This document shows positions 1 through 54,500 of a stretch of DNA of 64,000 bases, in pieces; position 1 is the first letter of the stretch, and each line of letters starts with the position of its first letter. The notes under the pieces were generated by a model. That model had not been told where the DNA came from. It did not search any database and saw only the letters and a program-made list of their open reading frames with translations. Both the position numbers and the translations under genes were made by a program. Source of the DNA: Polytrichum commune (taxonomy: Eukaryota > Streptophyta > Polytrichopsida > Polytrichales > Polytrichaceae); NCBI GenBank assembly GCA_950295325.1, contig OX485803.1:65115554-65179553 (forward strand). The letters are read 5' to 3'.

Positions 1-790
1 TTTCCTAAGTCAACACTATATTTTCCAATATAAATCTCAGGGGAAGGAATGTCGTTTATTCTAGGCTAAAAAAAACCCTACGTATGAGTATTAGCCTAGG
101 TTGTAAGGTTTTGGTAAATTGCCGTAAGGAGGGTTATTGGCCTCCAATAAGTGAGATCCATGGACTCCCCCTCTTTAGGGATTAGGCTAATAAGCCCCCT
201 AGTAATGCCTTCATGCAATGCCTCATTTTCTATACCCCTCTTTAGCATTTGGTGAAAATCAAATCCTATCATTGGCCAAAATTGTTGAAAAAACTTCATA
301 GGAATTTCATCATGCCTGGAAGCTTTCCTCTTTGTCATTGAGATGATTGTTAAAGATAACACTTTCTCCGTGATTTCTCTTGACAGAGAGTCACTCATAG
401 CGCCTGTAAACATGGTTAGAAGACCCTCTAAGACCTCACTAAGTGTGTTTTTTGATACTTCATTTTATTAATAAACGTCCCGATAGAAATCAAAACATAT
501 CTTCTCTAGGTCCTTCATTTTCCTAAAGCTTCTACCTTGTTTGTCTCTTAGCTCTAAGATGACTCCTTGCGAGTTTTTTTGTCTTTCTAACTTAAAAAAC
601 TCTGCAATGCACTTCTCTCCCACCTTTTGCCACTTGATTCTTGATCTTACTTTTGCCCCTCCTTTATGAGACTCTTGTATTGGTTAACCTCCCCTTGTTT
701 TCCTACGTTATATATGTCATCATGAAAATTAGTCGTGGCTACCTCTAGCTTGGCCCTAATATTGAGTTCTTCCCACTTGTGCTTCTTTGC
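1..790 (-). pseudogene. LINE (L1-type) ORF2 reverse transcriptase fragment, decayed
   Basis: On the minus strand, residues encoded at 413-96 carry the pattern of the N-terminal reverse transcriptase region of plant L1-type LINEs: a block like 'ASRHDEIPMKFFQQFWPMIG' followed by 'LISLIPK' and 'YWRPITLL'. Upstream of it (about 620-420) another frame gives the usual pre-RT linker with 'ELRDKQGRSF' and 'DLEKICFDFYRDVY'. Frames change and stop codons occur, so the element is dead. The fragment runs off the left edge of the window. It is the downstream part of the LINE whose endonuclease lies at 4473-5435; the reading frame resumes across the insertion at 796-4467. Confidence 0.8.
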
Positions 791-26002: not shown

Positions 26003-26870
26003 CTTTGAGCATTTTGTGACCAAGGAGGCATTGACTTGTGTGTATGATTCACTGATGTATGACTTTTATGTGACTAGCTTCTGCATGAACTTCATGTTGA
26101 AGTATGTTTTGGGTTCTGAAGTTAAGCTTAAAATGCACAGATTCATGTCAATTACCTGTCTTCATTCTGGTAAGAATGTTGGTTCGTGTGTTTGTGTGTG
26201 TCACTCCATCTCTTCTTAGTGGTGGTGGGGGTTTTGTGGAGACAATTGCAGTACATGTAATGTTGCATTTACGGAGTCAACAGCAGCTTTGAGCATTTTG
26301 TGACCAAGAAATATTGGGTTGTGGGTAGGATTCACTGATTTGTGACTTTTACGTGATTTGCTTCTGCATGGACTTTATGTTGAAGTATGTTTCGGGTTCT
26401 GAAGTAAAGATTCAAGTGCACAGATTCATGTCAATGAACAGTCATCTTTCTGGTAAGAATGTTGGTTCATGTGTTTGTTAGTGTCATTTTCATCTCTTCT
26501 TATAGATAGTAGGGGTTTGGTGGAAACAATTGCAGATACGTGTATTTTTGCATTTACTGGAATTCAGAGTGTCTTTGAATAGTGGGTTTGAAAGTGCACA
26601 GGCATGCCTTTGTCAGAGGGATAGTGGATAATTGACCGATTTATGACTTTCATGTGATTTGCTTCTGGGTGAACTTCATGTTCTAGTACATTTTGGGTTC
26701 TGAAGGTCAAGCTTCCAAGTGCATAGATTCATGTCATGACCAGTTATCCTTCTCATAAGAATGTTGGTTCATGTGTTTGTTAGTGTCACTTTCATCTCTT
26801 CTAATGGGGTAGTAGGGATTTTTGTGAGGACAATCGCAGATACATGTAATATTTGCATATACAAGAATTC
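26003..26870. repeat. Three tandem units of about 285-300 bp directly upstream of the F-box gene
   Basis: Units begin at about 26003, 26287 and 26573. All carry ATGACTTTYAYGTGA, TTTTGGGTTCTGAAG, ACAGATTCATGTCA, AAGAATGTTGGTTC and GACAATTGCAG in order. The third unit ends within a few bases of the first ATGs of the gene, so the array forms its promoter and leader region. Confidence 0.85.
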
Positions 26871-26871
26871 T

Positions 26872-26922
26872 ATGCCATGCAACATTCCATCAAGCGAGTT
26901 CCGTCGCTGTCGCCAGTACTAA
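26872..26922 (+). promoter_or_regulatory. Short upstream ORF overlapping the F-box start (TAATG)
   Basis: An out-of-frame ATG at 26872 opens a 16-codon frame whose TAA (26920-26922) overlaps by one base the ATG at 26922 of the main frame. It is present only if transcription starts upstream of 26872. Its effect on translation is unknown. Confidence 0.3.
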
Positions 26923-29900
26923 TGGCTTCGAGTTCTTCTGCCATTACCAATCCCTTACTCACTGGCCTACCTGATGACATTGCCATCCTCATCCTTGCGA
27001 GGCTGCCGAGGTCATACCTTCTGCTGCTGAAATCGGTGTCAAAAGCATGGAAAAATGCGTTGGAGCATGCGGGATTCGTGGATGCGAGAATGACCCTGGG
27101 CTGCTTAGAGGAGTGGCTGTACATTGAAACATGGAATTCGACCACTGAAAAGTTGTCGTGGTTCTGTTTTGACCCGCAAACTGCCAAGTGGTTGTGCCTG
27201 CCACCCGTGCCCAGGAGGAGGGGATTGTCAGCCAAGGTTTTTGGCCGAGTCTCAGCAGTGTTGAATGGCAAGCTGCTCGTTATGGGTGGCAAAGCAGGGC
27301 CTGAGGGTCCCACCCTTCGCGACCTCTTCATTTATTGTCCTCTCACCAACAAATGGTCAAGAGGGAAGCACATGATCAACACTCGCCACAGCCCTCTTGT
27401 CAGCGTCTTATCGGGAAAGGTATCCTACTTCACTACATGATTTATTCATTGAAAGATGACTGATGTTGCCATTGGCATGAATGATGGTGTTGCTTAATCT
27501 TTGAGTTGGTCTAAGTTTCAATGTAATCCCGAGACGGGCATCATGAGAATTAGAGGCCGTCCGAAACTACTGCCTCCTCCTTTTAAAGGTGAAAACCTTA
27601 ATGGGTGTAGACAAGCCAACCTGCACCTATCTCCCCTCAAGGGCAAGCCCCTAGGTTCTCACATGGTTGGTTATAAGTATCCGGTTCATTTGGATACCCC
27701 CACTATAATTGGGTGGACCATAGATGGTAGGGTGCACCAAAAATCAAGTGTTGGGAAGGTCAGCCATCCAAGTTCTATTATGGCCTTAGGCGGCCTAACC
27801 TTGGAGTTCTCATGGGATCTCAAGTTAAGGCCTTGGGTTTAAGCCACCCAGATTCACTGAATATTATTGAATGCTTGGAACTTGTTGCGATGAACAAATC
27901 GCTTTGATATACTCCATAAGAGAAAATCCTATGGTCACTGTGAAATGACTCTCAATAATCATAGGCTTTAAAAGTCTTTCGGGCCCATGCTCTGTGCTCG
28001 TCTCACAGAGTCCACATATATGGATTGTAAATGTGCATTACCCACCAATTATTGAGAGAGAGAGGACCCTCTAAAGTCCTTTGACCCTCAATCCTTGAGG
28101 GTGGGAAAGGGTGTTGAGGGTTGCCTCCCTCTTAACTGATCGGCGGGCATACGGATTTCAAAAACATGTAGGCTTCAGAATGTGGGTGGGATTGAGCATG
28201 CGGTCGTACCCCAAAAACGCTTAGCAAGCTGATTCTTGAGAGAATCATTTTCCAGTGACCATAGGAATTGGTCTTACATCAGAGGGTTAGAACCCGCACA
28301 GAATGAATCGAGCTTATGGTCTTGATCGGAATGAAGTGAGTTTCTTGCATACCTGCTGACTTTATTTGTGCAGTGCATACTTTGCAATGCTTCTGAAACC
28401 CAAAACATTCTGTTGATGAAATGCTTGCACGAGCTGTGACCAATTTCAGAGAAATCTGGTTATCATTTTCTTGCCTCCAATGGTTTCTCCTTTTGTCCGA
28501 CTCAATGATCACATTGTAGTTTTCTTGATTTATGTCAATAAGTTTCAAGTTTAAGGGAGGTTGTTCATGACTCCATTTGGAGAGGACACTGGAAAACATC
28601 TGTGGTCCGGTCTGTACTGACTTTGAGCAGGACAAGTTATCACAGATGTTCTCTAAAGATTTCTATTATACTTAAGGTAGAGGGTGCTTAAACCAACCCT
28701 TTGGTTGATTTATCCTATATATTACATCCAATATGTATAAGAGATGGCACATATGCGTTAGCAAATGCAACCTCATTGCCATAATACAAAAACTAAATAT
28801 ATAACATTAAATGTAAATATATATTCACTACAATCTGAATCTAATAGGTGATTTTTCATGACACATAGTAGCTTCTCAATGTCGTCATATAGGAGGCCCT
28901 TGACTAGGCCACTACCTAACTTCAAAGCAAGTTCCTTACAGCTTGAATTTGTCCACACTTAACTTTTTTGCAGCCCATCCTACTTGAGTTGCCTTGCCAC
29001 AACTTTAATTTGCCTGTCCTTGTTTTTGGCATGTGGTCCAAAAACCGTCCCCGTTAGCCCTATGAAGTGGACCCTATATGGCTTAATCCATCCGCAAGCC
29101 AACACACCACTTACTAACTTTGGTGCTATTTGTCATTTGATGCATCATGCGTCATTAGACCTAGCTAACTACATCTAATTAGTCTTTGTTGACCCCAAGT
29201 AGCTATTGACATGCCCAATCAATTTTGCACGTCACTAGTCTACACACTTGATGCCGACCCTTGAGCTATGTCTCACAATGGGATGGATTTAGGTTGCATA
29301 AAGTATCGGAATGGGAGGGTGACCTAGGGGACGGATTTAGGTAGGGGTTGGAATTAGTTGCCTCTACCTTAATTTGATTCACTTGACTTTTGTGTACTTA
29401 TAGAGGTTTCATATGAAGTTGTATGTGCTAGGTGGATTTGATTGGAACAATGAGCCACTGAATGCATCTGAGGTCTATGACTTCCAAAACAATGAGTGGA
29501 GTGTTATTGAGAGCACTGGTCACCCACGGCTGCGCGCACCATTGTGGTACAAGAAGGGATGGCAACCAGAATGGCAAGGCATTGTTCTCCACAATTCAAG
29601 CTACTTCTGTTCATACAAGGAGGATGATTCGCGTGCTTTTGTGAAGCATTATGACCCTGATACTGGCAACTGGGAATTTAAAAAGCCGAAGCTGAAAGCC
29701 CTACTAAGGTTTAAACATTTCTTCGAAATTTCACTTTTTAGGATTTTTGAATCTAGAAGGGTACAAGATCAAAGGGTTTATGCTGTAAAATGTACTGCAG
29801 GACCTGTGGGGTATGGACTGTAGAAATACAAATTCAAAGTATGTCTTATTTGAATTCCACATGCAAAAGCTATTAAGGGTTAAAACTTTTATTGGAAGAT

Positions 29901-41753: not shown

Positions 41754-42122
41754 AGGCACCACGGGCCTTGGCTTGGTGGTTAGGGCTCATGGCCCCCAAT
41801 GAGGAGGTCATGGGTTCTATTCCCCATGCCGGTGTGGTGCTCACCACCTTAGTCCACCCAACTATGGTGGGGGGTCCTTGGACCTTGTTGTATGGGTACC
41901 TCAAAGCCCTTTGGGGGGATACCATGTCCGGTATCTTCAAGGCACTAGTGGCTAGCTAGGAACTTGTATAGTGTGTCACTATAGTGTCCATCCTCGAAAG
42001 GGGAGAGTAGTATTGTCCCAATGTCCCCTTGTCCGGTGGGCATCGGGTCATTGGCATTACGAACGGACACTTTATTCATGCCGGCCCCTTGCTAAAAAGG
42101 GACCGGAGTTTCTATCTATCTA
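41754..42122 (+). mobile_element. tRNA-derived SINE, copy 2
   Basis: The head has an RNA polymerase III A box TGGCTTGGTGG (41769-41779) and B box GGTTCTATTCC (41813-41823), spaced 44 bp as in tRNA genes. The body contains AGTCCACCCAACTATGGTGG and near its end TTTATTCATGCCGG. The tail is (CTAT)n. A perfect 15-bp target duplication, TATGGGCATCAGTGA, lies at 41739-41753 and 42123-42137. Confidence 0.95.
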
Positions 42123-42660: not shown

Positions 42661-43011
42661 TTTAAGCTCCTCTACTTCCTCAACGAGACAACAAGTGATT
42701 ATCTATGAGTACCTCATAATGAAATTTTCACACTCCAAGAAGCTGTAAATTTATGTGTCATAAAAAGGATCTAATTGATGGAATTTGAGGGATATACAAG
42801 CTTGACAATGTGATTTTGGTGTTCATGTTGTATAATGTTGTATGTAAGGTATATGCGCATATCACCTATGAACATGTCATTATAGCCATACTAGCAAAGT
42901 CACTTTATAGACAAATATTTTCATTCATGAAGCTGGATAACGTAGTTGAAGAAACATGGGCTTTTGATCTGTTACTAAACATGTTCAAAGGTACACTACA
43001 ATATGAAAAAG

Positions 43012-43205
43012 AAAGATGACTCTGATGTTGCCACCGGCACAAATTATGGTGTTGCTTTATCTTTGGTTAGGTTAAGTCAATATGTAATCTTGAAAATTGA
43101 AACAAGCATCATACAAATTAGAGGGCCTCTAAAGATTACTACTCACTTAAAAAGGTAACCTTAAAGTTTCCATAGGATCCGGGTTAAGGCCTAGGGTGTA
43201 ATCCA
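43012..43205 (-). mobile_element. 5S rRNA-headed SINE, copy B (internal deletion)
   Basis: Read on the minus strand it keeps the first 50 nt or so of the 5S-like head (CCTTAACCCGGATCCTATGG) and then jumps to the 3' part of the family: GGCCCTCTAATTTGTATGAT, AAGCAACACCATAATTTGTG, CCGGTGGCAACATCAGAGTC and a TCTTTCTTT tail. The central body is deleted. Confidence 0.75.
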
Positions 43206-45460
43206 CCATTGCTCTTTTTTTGTAACCAAGTTGGGATGCCTTTCATGCATATTACAAGTGCCTCCTATGCAGAGTTTCATACACAACATGTACTTGTTGA
43301 GTGTGTCACAGTTACCCCCCAACCCCCCCCCCCCCATCTACAAGCCCACTTTATGAACAAGGGACTTTGAATCATGTTCCAATACTTCGATTGGAGATCT
43401 CCAATAGTATACATATTCCTATCATTGATTATCTATACCAATATCTTCCTCAAAATTGCTAGCAAAATCAATTCTTTGTCACGTTGATTCAATGGTGAAT
43501 TGGAGACACATCTATCAAATGTAAGTTAAAAGCGCCCAATTTTGTGATAAACCCAATTTGGAAGCTATTCTTGGTCCCTTTATGAACAACTACCGTTTCT
43601 TAAGTGGTTAGCACTTTAGAACCATGTATAATCATTTCACACTTGTTGAATTTCATAGTATGTGAAGAGAGACTTAATGTTTTAACCACCACATCACCAA
43701 CAATCTCAATATATGCAAGTTGGTATACATGTTCAAAATTTCACACGATGGTGATCTACCCATTGGTTGATTTAAGTAATTGAAAATCCAATTAGAAATG
43801 TTTGGACATCTATTATATCATATAGGCCAAGAGCAAAGTGGGAGGATAATGTAACAAAATTAAATTTAAGTTTTTATGTTGTTGACCATGGACCCATGCT
43901 CACTCAATATTTGTACTTGTAGATTGGTGTTAGCAATACATGTCAAACTCCATGCAACATCAAAGACTTAAATAGTTATGTGTTTATGCAAACTCAACAA
44001 TACTATAGCAACAAGATTTGGAAGATGTAGAGTGACAACATTCATGAGTTTGGAAATTGATTGTGCAAATCTTGGGCTCAAAGGCTTTTTTAAAGGGCAC
44101 ACAATTTCAATATCACACCTAAGTACATGTGCTCTTAGTTCTACAAATCCCATCATGGCTTGCACCCACCTTTCAAACTCATAAGGATCAAATGAGTATT
44201 GTAACTTTGGATACGATCCAATTTACATGTTCTCAATAGTATCGTGCTCGTAATGTACTTGCTCATTCAATTTTAAAAATAATCAGTTAGTTTTCCACGT
44301 TAGATACAAGACTATAGTGCTCAAAGTGTTTGTCATTGACGCTTCTATCTTTTCAACTTAAACGCAACAACAACAATTTACCTCGAAGAAAACCTCCAAA
44401 GGTTCGAAGGAAACAACTCAACACATCCTTTAATCATGTTATGGAGGAGGATGGGGACGAGATTGATCACAATAAGGGAGATATTTATATATGTATAAAG
44501 GGCCCATACAACAAGGTTGCAACAATGTTTTGTCGACTCAACATGTCCATTCTAAACCCCTCATAGGTTGGTCATGCCAATTTTACATCATGTTGTATGG
44601 AGTTTTGTTGTTTGGGACCATAGTTTCTACTAAGTTACATCATCTTTGTTTTAAGATTTAGGGTTTTATGTAAGGGTTATGTGACCCGCCAAGCCGGGTG
44701 CGGGACCCATGCAACAAGTTGGCTGGCCCCCCTCCCCCCAAAAAACTAAACATGATAAATTTTCGGATACATGTGACAAACATGTTTGTCACTTTGCGCC
44801 CGCCCTTGTAGGTGAACAACACTCAGGCTAAGTACAATCCATTGTGCAAGGGTGGATCATATGAAGAGGAGAATCATTCTTGCTTCATTCCCAACACCAA
44901 GGGAACAACACCCAAGTGCTAAGTCATGTTATGATAGTATTAAAGCGACTTCATGCATGTAACACTCCCACAAACTACTCTATCTACTGCCACTTTAAAG
45001 TAGGAGTTGAGGGAAGGAGAAATGTGGTGGCGGTGTTGTAGATGATGCCCTAATTAGTGTGATGATGCCACGGCTCGTGCATTGAATTTCCATATTCCTT
45101 GTCCACAATATTCCAACAGTGTGAATGTCCTTCGTGTCGCAGGCTGCTACAAATTATGGCTTTGATTTGCAGCCCTTGGAGTATGCTAGTGTAGTGACCT
45201 GCTGAGGCCCAACATTCAGTGCACTTTAATAATCGACATGGCTGACACACAGTCAAAGACGGGCACACACCAAGCTTAACTAGCTAGCTAGCCGCATCAA
45301 TTCAGTAGTAGCTAGGCCTGTCCATTCGGCACCTGTTGCACTTAATGAACCTGGTAGTACTACATACAGAATTCAACATACATTCTGGAGTCGTTCGAGG
45401 ACAGTCTTCAAGAAGACCCTGAGAACAATGAACGCGAGAACCATTCGCTAGTTAATTATG
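43206..45460. other. Intergenic, nothing recognised
   Basis: AT-rich sequence with a poly-C run at about 43317-43335. Short frames on both strands (for example 43968-44184) show no domain. Confidence 0.35.
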
Positions 45461-50560: not shown

Positions 50561-51900
50561 TCATGTGAAATTATTTCGAAGACCATGGTATTACAAGCAA
50601 GACTCAAGACTAGAAGACATTCATGGCAACATTGATGGACAATGGTATTCATGACCCACCTCTTATGCTTGAGACATTTCAATTTGTGAAGAGGGTAAGT
50701 GAATAACATACTATCATTCATAATATACATATGTTTCATATCCTTTCATCCCAATTGTATTGCTATGAATTGATTTAAAAAAATGAGTTGTTATTCCACT
50801 TTGCTTGTGTCCACAAGAGCTTGTAAGTTTGATCTCATTGTGGTAGATATGTTAATTTCCAGCTCATATTTCACCTTTAATTTGATTATTTGAAATACGA
50901 TGTGAAGATTGTTGTAAACGCGCATGAATTCCAATTGCAAATGATTGGGTGGGGCATTAACTTGTTAACATTTTGTTTGGGGATTGGTAGATTTGTCATT
51001 GTATATGACTACTCTTAACCTTACATTTTTCATTCATGGATTTTGTTAATACGATGCTGATGATTTTGATTTAAGTGCTCAAATATGAAGTTTTATGGTG
51101 TGTTCTAATACAATTCAAAATTTTATAGACTTGTTGTTCTCACATTGTAAAATTTTGAATATAAAGACATCCAAGCGCATTTTTGGTTTTCATAAAAATA
51201 GTGATATATGAGAGGTAGATGTGGAAGACATCGACATCTTCTTTAATCTTACCAAATTAGTTAGTGAACTCGTGATAAGAGGAGTCCCTTGGAGAGATGG
51301 ATAGAATAAACATCCCTTATATATGAAAATCCAAATATAACATTACCTAAACTTGGAGACATTGTGTTTAATGTCTAAACATTAATAATCTAAAAGAAAT
51401 ATTGTTTTGCAACTGAACCACTCACTAATTTTTTGTCACTTTTTTATATGATTTTCATGTGCACCTATTCATGCTTGCAACATAGTTATCATAACCTTGT
51501 CACATGTGACGGAGATTTGATAATTTTCAATGTCATTCAATGGCTACTATGTGCATAAATCAAGCATACGTTTAGTTTATTACACTTTGTTTCAAGCCCA
51601 TGTTAATATTACATTATAGAAATTTTATCACTTTCATTCTCCATCCATGTACGGTTTGGAGGTTTGTTGTGTCTTTAAAGCTTATTTTCTTGTTGTTTTC
51701 ACAGGAGGGTGTGGCTTTAGATTTTCATGCCATCTCTTGTGGTATTTGTATTCTTCTTCCTAGGGTCTTGGTGTCATTCAATCTTGGTGTTTAGGTGTTT
51801 AGTGGTTGGAATATTATTGGTGTTTACATGTTTTGGTATCAATCAATTTTTTGTTTTGGGTTGTAGTGGTTAGTATATTGCTAATGTTATGTGTGTATTG
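50561..51900. other. Intergenic, nothing recognised
   Basis: AT-rich, no gene or bounded element seen. Confidence 0.35.
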
Positions 51901-51904
51901 TGTC

Positions 51905-52332
51905 ATGAAAGAAAGGAAGAAAGAAAGAAGGAAAGAAAACGACTCCGATGTTATCACCGGCGTGAATTATGGTGTTGCTTCATTTTTGAGTTGGTCTACA
52001 TCCATATGTAATCATGAAACGAGCATTACAAGAATTAGAGTGCCCTAAATGACTATTGCCTGTTTTTAAAGGTGAACACCTCTGAATGAGTGTGGATAAG
52101 TGGGCTGGCTCCTATCTCCCCAAAGGGCAAGCTCTCAGGTTCCCATATGGTTGGTTGTAAATATATGCCTCACCCTGATACCCTTGATATGATTGAGTGG
52201 ATCATAAGTGATAGGGTGCACAAGAAATCTAGTGCTAGGAAGGTCATCCATCCTAACACTATTCCGGCGTTAGGTAGCTTAACCTTGAAGGTCCATGGGA
52301 TCCGGGTTAAGGCCTTGAGTTTAAGCCAACCT
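51905..52332 (-). mobile_element. 5S rRNA-headed SINE, copy C (full length)
   Basis: Read on the minus strand, 52331-52213 aligns end to end with plant 5S rRNA (about 119 nt): CCCGGATCCCATG (5S CCGGATCCCATC), GGTTAAGC (A-box start), GTTAGGATGGATGACCTTCC (box C; 5S CTAGGATGGGTGACCTCC) and the closing TTGTGCACCC. A body with ATGATCCACTCAATCAT follows, then AGCAACACCATAATTCACGC, CGGTGATAACATC and a (TTTC/TTCC)n tail at 51940-51908. A clean target duplication was not found. Confidence 0.9.
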
Positions 52333-52339
52333 TTATGTC

Positions 52340-54500
52340 ACACACTCTTGGTGTTCAAGGTTGCAATGGTGGATTTAATGTTGTTGTTCACCAGTTTGTG
52401 TTGTCACTTAGTCATCTTGTTTACGAGTTCCTTTGGCAATATTTAGGGGGTTTAGAGTACTTGCATAATGGTCACATGTCGTTGATCTTGTTGAAGCCAT
52501 CGCCACCGAAGTTATTTTAGGGGATGATGCATTAGGGTATTTGCTTGTGGATGCAATTTTGTTGCGCTGATGGGTGGTAGAGTTGTTTTTAATTCTTCGT
52601 TTCATTTTAAAGCACATGTGTTGTGCAAATGTTGTGCACATGTGAGATTTTTTGCACCTAGATGCCTATGTTTAAAAGAGTTGAAAAATAAGATCACAAC
52701 ATGGTGGATGAAACAAACCCAATTATTTTATAGCACGTACACGACTATTTCCAAACAATCTGACTCTTGAAATGACATTAAATGACTCCAAATTTACTTA
52801 GTGAGGTGTAGTTGGGATGAATCGGCCCCTCAATATGAAGATGCTTTTTGTTTATAATAACACCTTCATATTCCACGACGGATGGGTCAACAAGCTTGCC
52901 ACAAATCCCAAGCCGCCCCGAGAGAGGCGCATCCTCCATAGTCACGAATGCTGAACCATGGCAAGTGATGTTTTGTGAAGCCTACCAGAGGGAGAGAGTG
53001 AACGCAAAGCAAAACATTACATACCTCATTGTCTCCACTTCAAAACTAATCGATCCAGGAATCAAGGTGAAAGACTCCCAAAATGTACTCCAGCAAGACC
53101 CGATCGCAATGACGTAGCAACAAACTTGGGAGGGGCAATTATTCCACCCCAAACCCTTATGGCAGAGGCTTGAAATTCGCGACGTCCATGTAAACTCATC
53201 CATCATCGTGCATGAACAAGCTCTGGTAACAACAAGTCCCATCCATACAGGGTTGACGGCCAATTGCTTTGAGCTCTACTTCACTACACTAATTTGGAAT
53301 CTCCGGTCGCTATTTGCGGAGTCGAATCATCCACAAATAGTCATTTGCAAGCTACAAATCAATGCACATCCGGCGTTTTCACCTCCACGATGGATGGGTT
53401 TACATGCATAGACACCACGAACCCCTAGCCTGCCCAGGGCTGATTTTTCACAAAGTTTTTGCCCATCCACGTCCAAAAACCTTGAATTGAAAGGCAAAAA
53501 AAATTGTAACCCGTCCCAAAACTGGTAGTTTCTAAACCAACCCGTTCATGGAAAGGTTAAAGGAAAAAAACCCGTCCCAAAACCGGTTTGGAAATGAAAA
53601 TACATGTCCCGCAATACGTATAAATAAGTCTCTTACAATGTTGGTATTTTTTTTATAAAAAAAAAAAAAACCAAAAGATGTTGACATGTGATTGTTTGCA
53701 CTTGGAAACAATAGGATCTTCACAAATTATGCCTTCAATGCCCGTCAATTATTTGTCTTTTGCTGTCGATTCTCATCTTTCCAATATACCCCATTATTTT
53801 CCCTCTGCCACCATCATTTCTTTTTATTTCTTGTCCTTCAATCTCCCACTTCTTTTCCCACACTCTATCCTCAAGGTGTTTCCATCACTTGCCATCGCCC
53901 GTCCGTCACCACCCGCATTCCCTCCACAAGAGGGGTTTTTCTAGACAAAACCTAATCAAAAGTCATCTACGTGCTAGTTTGAAGTTAGAGACTTTAGATG
54001 CTTTGATGCGCATTTCATGTGCAAATATTCCAGCTGAAAACATCAATTGGAATGCAATGACGCTTATTTGGAGAAACATGAAGGACATGAGAATTCATCC
54101 ACTTCTTTGAAGGGTGAGTAGCTCTTTATTTTTAAATTTTTGAACATGTTTATATATTCTAATTCTTATTCAATTGCTAATGTTACCTTCAATTATAATC
54201 TTTGACATCATGTTAAAAAGGTTCTAAATTTTGCGGTTGATGAATTAATGTATGCAAGTGAATCAAGCACTTCAAGATGGATATTTGGATTGGGTATTAG
54301 TGGTTTGATTGCATTATGCTTATACCCACATGTCATATATGACATAATGTAACTGATATTAGTATCATTTATCTTTTTGAAAAAAAATATTTTTAAAATG
54401 TTATTTTTAGAACCTATCCACTTGAAAGGTTTTTTTTCTATGAACATGTCCCTGGACATGTTGGGGACCTTGTGAAAAATCAGCATGCGATGCCATGGTG
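52340..54500. other. Intergenic; possible minus-strand relic at 52850-53420
   Basis: Around 53260-52980 the minus strand has short protein-like pieces in more than one frame, all broken. A fragment of the AACCGGTT-rich family (GATGTTGACATGTGATTG) lies at 53670-53733. Otherwise nothing is recognised. Confidence 0.25.

Follow-up and report, generated by a model that had tools for sequence, protein, structure and literature searches.

The genome of Polytrichum commune very probably hosts a SINE family of the SINE3 type, with a promoter head captured from the host's own 5S rRNA gene. The SINE3 type itself is already known; what is unexpected is its plant host. Three copies, called A, B and C here, lie in the window, meaning the whole 64-kb stretch of DNA that was analysed (64,000 nucleotides). 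Their features are as follows:

27451 to 27849, minus strand: copy A, full-length 5S-headed SINE (consensus 1-398, 85.9% identity)
43008 to 43207, minus strand: copy B, internally deleted remnant (consensus 2-53 meets 259-401 near 43156)
51906 to 52331, minus strand: copy C, full-length 5S-headed SINE (from consensus match and sequence reading)
52213 to 52331, minus strand: 5S rRNA-derived head of copy C (locus L001; score 51, z 8.7 against native 5S)
52277 to 52284, minus strand: box A-like core GGTTAAGC of copy C (from sequence; GTTAAGC in native 5S)
52256 to 52264, minus strand: intermediate element-like GAATAGTGT of copy C (from sequence; GAATAGTAC in native 5S)
52238 to 52253, minus strand: box C-like GGATGGATGACCTTCC of copy C (from sequence)
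52333 to 52340, minus strand: 5' target site duplication of copy C, TGACATAA (by eye)
51898 to 51905, minus strand: 3' target site duplication of copy C, TGACACAA (by eye; 7/8 identical to the 5' side)

Copy C follows the family consensus from 1 to 402 (52331-51931, 84.6% identity) and then runs through a T/C-rich tail to 51906. The first-pass annotation had described all three copies as colinear with 5S rRNA over about 119 nt, which is correct for copies A and C; in copy B, an internal deletion has cut the head off after its first ~53 nt, with loss of boxes A to C. Likewise, the motifs said to be kept are all present in copy C (CCGGATCCCAT, GTTAAGC and GGATGGATGACCTTCC) and box C is retained in copy A as well, but copy A reads GTTAGGC for GTTAAGC and its CCGG is disrupted. 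We take GAATAGTGT, and GAATAGTAC in native 5S, to be the 5S intermediate element. Single copies in the window are decayed: the Rfam 5S model gives no match at E<=10 in copy A or copy C, and at the gathering threshold no Rfam match was obtained anywhere in the 64 kb. Copy A lies between an F-box/Kelch ORF (26853-27440, plus strand) and an ORF that is Kelch-like by eye (29413-29823, plus strand), and probably sits in an intron of an F-box/Kelch gene.

Family members were collected by a whole-genome search with copy C, which gave 1887 candidates. Of these, 40 were scored, and the 30 best were retrieved and aligned together with their flanks. All 40 scored candidates matched, copy C among them, the other 39 at 76-81% identity. 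The element is ~400 nt long and its copies are spread over all seven large contigs (42-78 Mb) of a genome of 407,808,757 bases in 64 contigs. In the alignment of the 30 loci, noise gives way to ~90% agreement at GGGTGGCTTAAACCC, and agreement drops again past the pyrimidine tail. Flanks are unrelated in 27 of the 30 loci; the remaining three (copy C, L002 and L004) have common flanks, ~830 bp in all, indicating that these three sit in copies of an older repeat. Mean divergence from the consensus is 12.9% (range 8.3-16.6%; 10.7% outside CpG), a value obtained from the 30 loci nearest to copy C, so that the true mean is probably higher. When at most two mismatches were allowed, the head motif GGATGGNTGACCTTCCNNGCACTTGATTT was found at 503 genome sites and a body motif at 408, the reversed control giving none in either case. 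Given that ~13% divergence over 26 specified positions leads one to expect more than three changes, the family probably exceeds a thousand copies in total. As to other contents of this genome, the chlorophyll a/b-binding family is represented by 58 matches, as befits a plant, and fourteen such matches of equal bit score span ~95 kb at C5:1751760-1846160 (the L061 region). When one of these proteins was compared with PDB sequences, the top entry was 9vfj, a 620-residue protein matched in two stretches, followed by 8htu and 7xqp (461 and 459 bits) and by entries of 438 bits or less. 8HTU is a structure from the moss Physcomitrium patens, and so is 7XQP (PMC12589708), in line with a moss host. 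The seven large contigs would fit n=7 in Polytrichales.

The evidence for a 5S origin of the head comes mainly from comparison with native 5S, for which we used the genome's own copy (109.6 bits to Rfam 5S). Aligned end to end with it, consensus positions 1-121 are identical in 84 of 124 columns (68%), with a score of 84 (z 12; best of 5000 shuffles 16), and dinucleotide shuffling changes little (z 11.2; best of 1000 shuffles 16). The heads of all 30 copies score well individually (z 7.8-12.7), whereas body segments of the same length from these copies do not (z -1.3 to 2.5). The similarity was strengthened rather than lost in the family consensus, from a score of 51 for the head of copy C to 84, and the proposal that the elements begin at 5S +1 was borne out, copies A and C starting at consensus position 1 and the consensus aligning with native 5S from its first base. 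Other yardsticks score lower: an Arabidopsis-like 5S (score 72, 83/124 columns, z 10.6), human 5S (score 42, z 6.7) and a decayed 5S-like repeat of the same genome (score 50, z 7.9). At the 21 positions that split native from Arabidopsis-like 5S, the head sides with native 5S at 13, with the other at 4 and with neither at 4. We infer that the head descends from the 5S of the host lineage and that two CpG sites which it still has, at positions 30 and 47, were altered in native 5S only after that descent. Decay is nevertheless apparent in single copies, since none of those tested exceeds Rfam's 5S threshold: the model recognises the head, on the right strand, in 4 of 20 related loci at sub-threshold scores (22-27 bits; gathering score 38), with no match at E<=5 in the other 16. 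In the predicted fold of the head, GGGTG/CACCC forms the closing pairing; we do not claim that the head folds as 5S rRNA.

Sequences resembling promoter boxes also lie in the head. The consensus has the GTTAAGC core of box A and GAATAGTAC. Of the two Cassandra/5S queries taken from the literature, the one for box C is matched with a single mismatch, whereas the longer one for box A has no match in the consensus at up to two mismatches. Box C shows no extra conservation among copies (rank 296 of 385 windows), which is expected of dead copies yet means that conservation provides no independent support for promoter function. Besides the SINE heads, the genome contains 5S copies at dispersed sites as well as decayed 5S-like copies whose flanks differ, and in the 5 kb beside the one 5S copy examined there is no LSU rRNA match. 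A second, different 5S-like repeat, above Rfam's 5S threshold, occurs at L043, L046, L049 and L050; at L043 and L046 it forms two units ~182-183 nt apart, and at L046, L049 and L050 it has common flanks by eye. It could be a 5S array that has diverged, or else a further element derived from 5S.

The ends of the element are those of a retroposon. The consensus runs from GG to (TTTC)n, and T or C makes up 322 of the 336 letters when the 12 nt surrounding the tail anchor are pooled over 28 loci. Target duplications, which the first-pass annotation had wanted checked, are present at family copies and are ~7-14 nt long, for example TCCAGAAAGCAAA (L015), TGGTACAGCAAC (L019) and TGGTAGAACA (L009). 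They were assessed in 28 loci, two flank-sharing loci having been dropped, with permuted 5'/3' flank partners as control: the mean flank-match score is 7.71 against 5.13 when permuted, and none of 20000 permutations reaches the observed value (best 6.21). Scores of at least 8 are found in 14 of the 28 loci but in only 1.7% of 756 mismatched flank pairs; scores stay below 7 in nine of the 28, so that duplications are unclear in about one third of loci. At copy C the automatic test chose another match than the one seen by eye (ACATAA, score 6); in L002, which shares its flanks with copy C, TGACACAA stands on both sides of the element. A head-blind sample of 20 loci was drawn by hand over the seven large contigs from the 65 perfect matches to the body motif. 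Ten of these 20 loci have the 5S head (z 7.1-10.6), nine starting at consensus 1-3 and one at 24; the other ten start at consensus 61-182 and are truncated, deleted or tandem, among them L090, still with box C, and L085, with the first bases of the head. No alternative head was seen by eye in the ten headless loci. The points of 5' truncation vary and the sequence upstream of them differs.

The main competitor to be considered is Cassandra, a known plant TRIM with a 5S promoter (PMC7215508, PMC10853983). The copies would then be solo LTRs or remnants of a Cassandra-like element, with 5S sequence in its LTRs and mobilised by integrase, and the single mismatch to the published box C query fits such an origin. 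The failure of the published box A query does not, and the anatomy contradicts it throughout. In none of the 30 loci do the ~3.4 kb retrieved contain another copy in the same orientation (two have a partial copy in opposite orientation), nor is there the Cassandra primer-binding site TGGTATCAGAGC at up to one mismatch within 700 nt on the element strand; a genome search for 5S box C followed by this site also gave no hit, although with an exact pattern this is a weak test. The ends are GG...TTTC and not TG...CA, 5S sequence starts at the first base of the element, the duplications measure ~7-14 nt instead of 5, and the copies have T/C tails and 5' truncations. We therefore regard a Cassandra origin as highly improbable. 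The preference for a SINE expressed in the first-pass annotation is supported, and since neither the paired LTRs nor the 5-bp duplications that would have marked a Cassandra element were found, the SINE reading stands.

The head itself could mislead in two ways. It could consist of retroposed 5S rRNA pseudogenes inserted by chance beside an unrelated repeat, and the dispersed and decayed 5S copies of this genome, with their differing flanks, do provide material for such accidents. Yet a single match covers the junction of 5S and body in 30 of 30 loci, half of the 20 loci anchored in the body retain the head, and head and body lie together within one pair of target duplications, making chance association extremely improbable. 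Alternatively, the head could be tRNA-like or of some other origin and resemble 5S by convergence, as might be suspected from a match of 68% over the whole head and from single copies that fall below Rfam's threshold. This we find scarcely credible given a score of 84 where no shuffle of either kind exceeds 16, colinearity over the full length of 5S including both ends, and the native-lineage state at 13 of 21 informative positions. ARAGORN, moreover, predicts no tRNA in the window, a weak argument because this program also misses tRNA-like SINE heads. A SINE with a head taken from the host's 5S gene thus remains the reading that we adopt.

How would such an element propagate? Judging from its anatomy and from known SINEs, box A, the intermediate element and box C of the 5S head would together form an internal promoter of type 1, from which Pol III would read through the ~280-nt body into the T-rich tail; a LINE-encoded enzyme would then copy the RNA into DNA at a nick in the target. 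Such a cycle predicts copies with a (TTTC)n-like tail and ~7-14-nt duplications on either side, whose 5' end is either 5S +1 or a point of truncation. A LINE with a 3' end matching the 5S SINE was sought in 24 loci (16 zf-RVT, 8 RVT_1), with no convincing match. Four of these LINE loci, L101-L104, have a recognisable end, which is poly(A) and not a T/C tail, and they are probably not the partner of T/C-tailed SINEs; they are LINE-type reverse transcriptase elements with open frames of 1418-1439 aa.

The same genome holds a second SINE, with a tRNA-like head. Boxes A and B of this head each differ by one mismatch from the tRNA-type consensus, and there is in the one locus tested a sub-threshold tRNA-type Rfam match (19.8 bits, E 0.21), on which a tRNA derivation would be based; ARAGORN finds no tRNA in ten of ten loci. 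When 40 of 1473 candidates were scored, 41 matches including itself were obtained, the others 91-96% identical, and this SINE is thus probably younger than the 5S-headed one. At L036, a member of this family (44-418, minus strand) adjoins a somewhat decayed 5S copy (424-542, 78.9 bits), a neighbourhood of the kind from which composite heads could arise. Three further copies lie in the window, with approximate 3' ends:

41755 to 42120, plus strand: tRNA-like-headed SINE copy
62556 to 62192, minus strand: tRNA-like-headed SINE copy
40570 to 40190, minus strand: tRNA-like-headed SINE copy

Their first ~256 nt are those of the L036 family and their 3' half differs, ending in (TATC)n, so that one head and body appear with two 3' ends. 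The copy at 41755 has a perfect 14-15-nt target duplication, ATGGGCATCAGTGA (by eye). Locus L067 contains a match to the 3' part of this window variant (77% over 53 nt, E 6e-6).

The two SINEs may be related behind their heads. Directly after the head stands CCACCTTAGTCCACCCAACTATGGTGGGGG in the tRNA-like-headed SINE and CCACCTATGGTCCACCCAATCATAGTGGGGG in the 5S SINE, within a module of ~31 nt. Its similarity score of 35 was reached by 1 of 3000 dinucleotide shuffles, and by none of 3000 when the comparison started three bases earlier; short-word BLAST gives E 0.11 and a consensus-to-window BLAST E 0.005-0.006. With looser scoring the local score is 46, below the maximum of 57 among 2000 shuffles. 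Because it fails this looser scoring, and because it was tested after the likeness had been seen, kinship of the module is probable, not proven. Common 3' ends of the two SINEs, also suspected by eye, were rejected, fractions of 0.04 and 0.81 of shuffles reaching the score. The tRNA-like-headed SINE thus resembles the 5S SINE in the module after the head and in a pyrimidine-rich tail, and differs from it in head and 3' half. A common module behind two different heads suggests that 5S and tRNA-like heads were exchanged on a common SINE chassis in this genome, in which case the 5S-headed family could have originated by fusion of a 5S head onto a body module that the other SINE also carries.

Set against known systems, the element is unusual for its host. 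That nearly all plant SINEs are tRNA-headed, as the first-pass annotation stated, agrees with a review that describes plant SINEs as tRNA-derived, names Au among the tRNA-type SINEs and presents an Angio-domain superfamily with a 37-bp 3' Angio-domain (PMC9033089). Its statement that 5S-headed SINEs are known from animals also agrees with the literature: SINE3 elements occur in vertebrates and insects, for example zebrafish SINE3, DeuSINEs and HaSE3 (PMC7245038, PMC3747384). The family described here is like them in its 5S-derived head, putative non-coding body and dispersed copies, and differs in (i) its plant host, (ii) its (TTTC)n-like tail and (iii) a head closer to its own 5S (z 11.2) than to human 5S (z 6.7). 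Outside animals, 5S-headed SINEs have been described in Aspergillus (AfuSINE3, SINE3-1_AO), A. fumigatus having five AfuSINE3 copies, 259-343 bp long, in which the boxes are poorly conserved (PMC5063351), compared with hundreds of copies here. T-rich 3' ends are reported for the plant SINEs Au and p-SINE1 (PMC3747384) and by description resemble ours, although our tail is (TTTC)n-like and Au is of the tRNA type. Cassandra TRIMs of vascular plants are likewise plant retroelements with a captured 5S promoter, but they have LTRs and a primer-binding site, with 5S inside each LTR, whereas in the moss element, which starts at 5S +1, neither was found. In titles and abstract openings of the open-licence literature we found no 5S-derived plant SINE; entries in Repbase or SINEBase may exist.

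Cassandra has been proposed to originate by insertion of a SINE3 into an LTR (PMC10886601), while a 2024 paper prefers insertion of an LTR element close to a 5S array and cites acquisition of genic promoters by SINEs as occurring 'in animals' (PMC10853983). It is tempting to combine these threads: 5S-headed SINEs would be an old land-plant lineage, missed so far by SINE searches designed to detect tRNA-type boxes, they would have donated the 5S promoter of Cassandra's LTRs, and heads would have been exchanged in the present genome. Taken as a whole, we consider this scenario rather unlikely. The family in Polytrichum nevertheless means that capture of a 5S promoter by a SINE happened in a plant too, and that a plant now has the type of element proposed as the source of the Cassandra 5S promoter (PMC10886601). 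If the same is true elsewhere, 5S-headed families would escape SINE annotation that depends on boxes A and B of the tRNA type.
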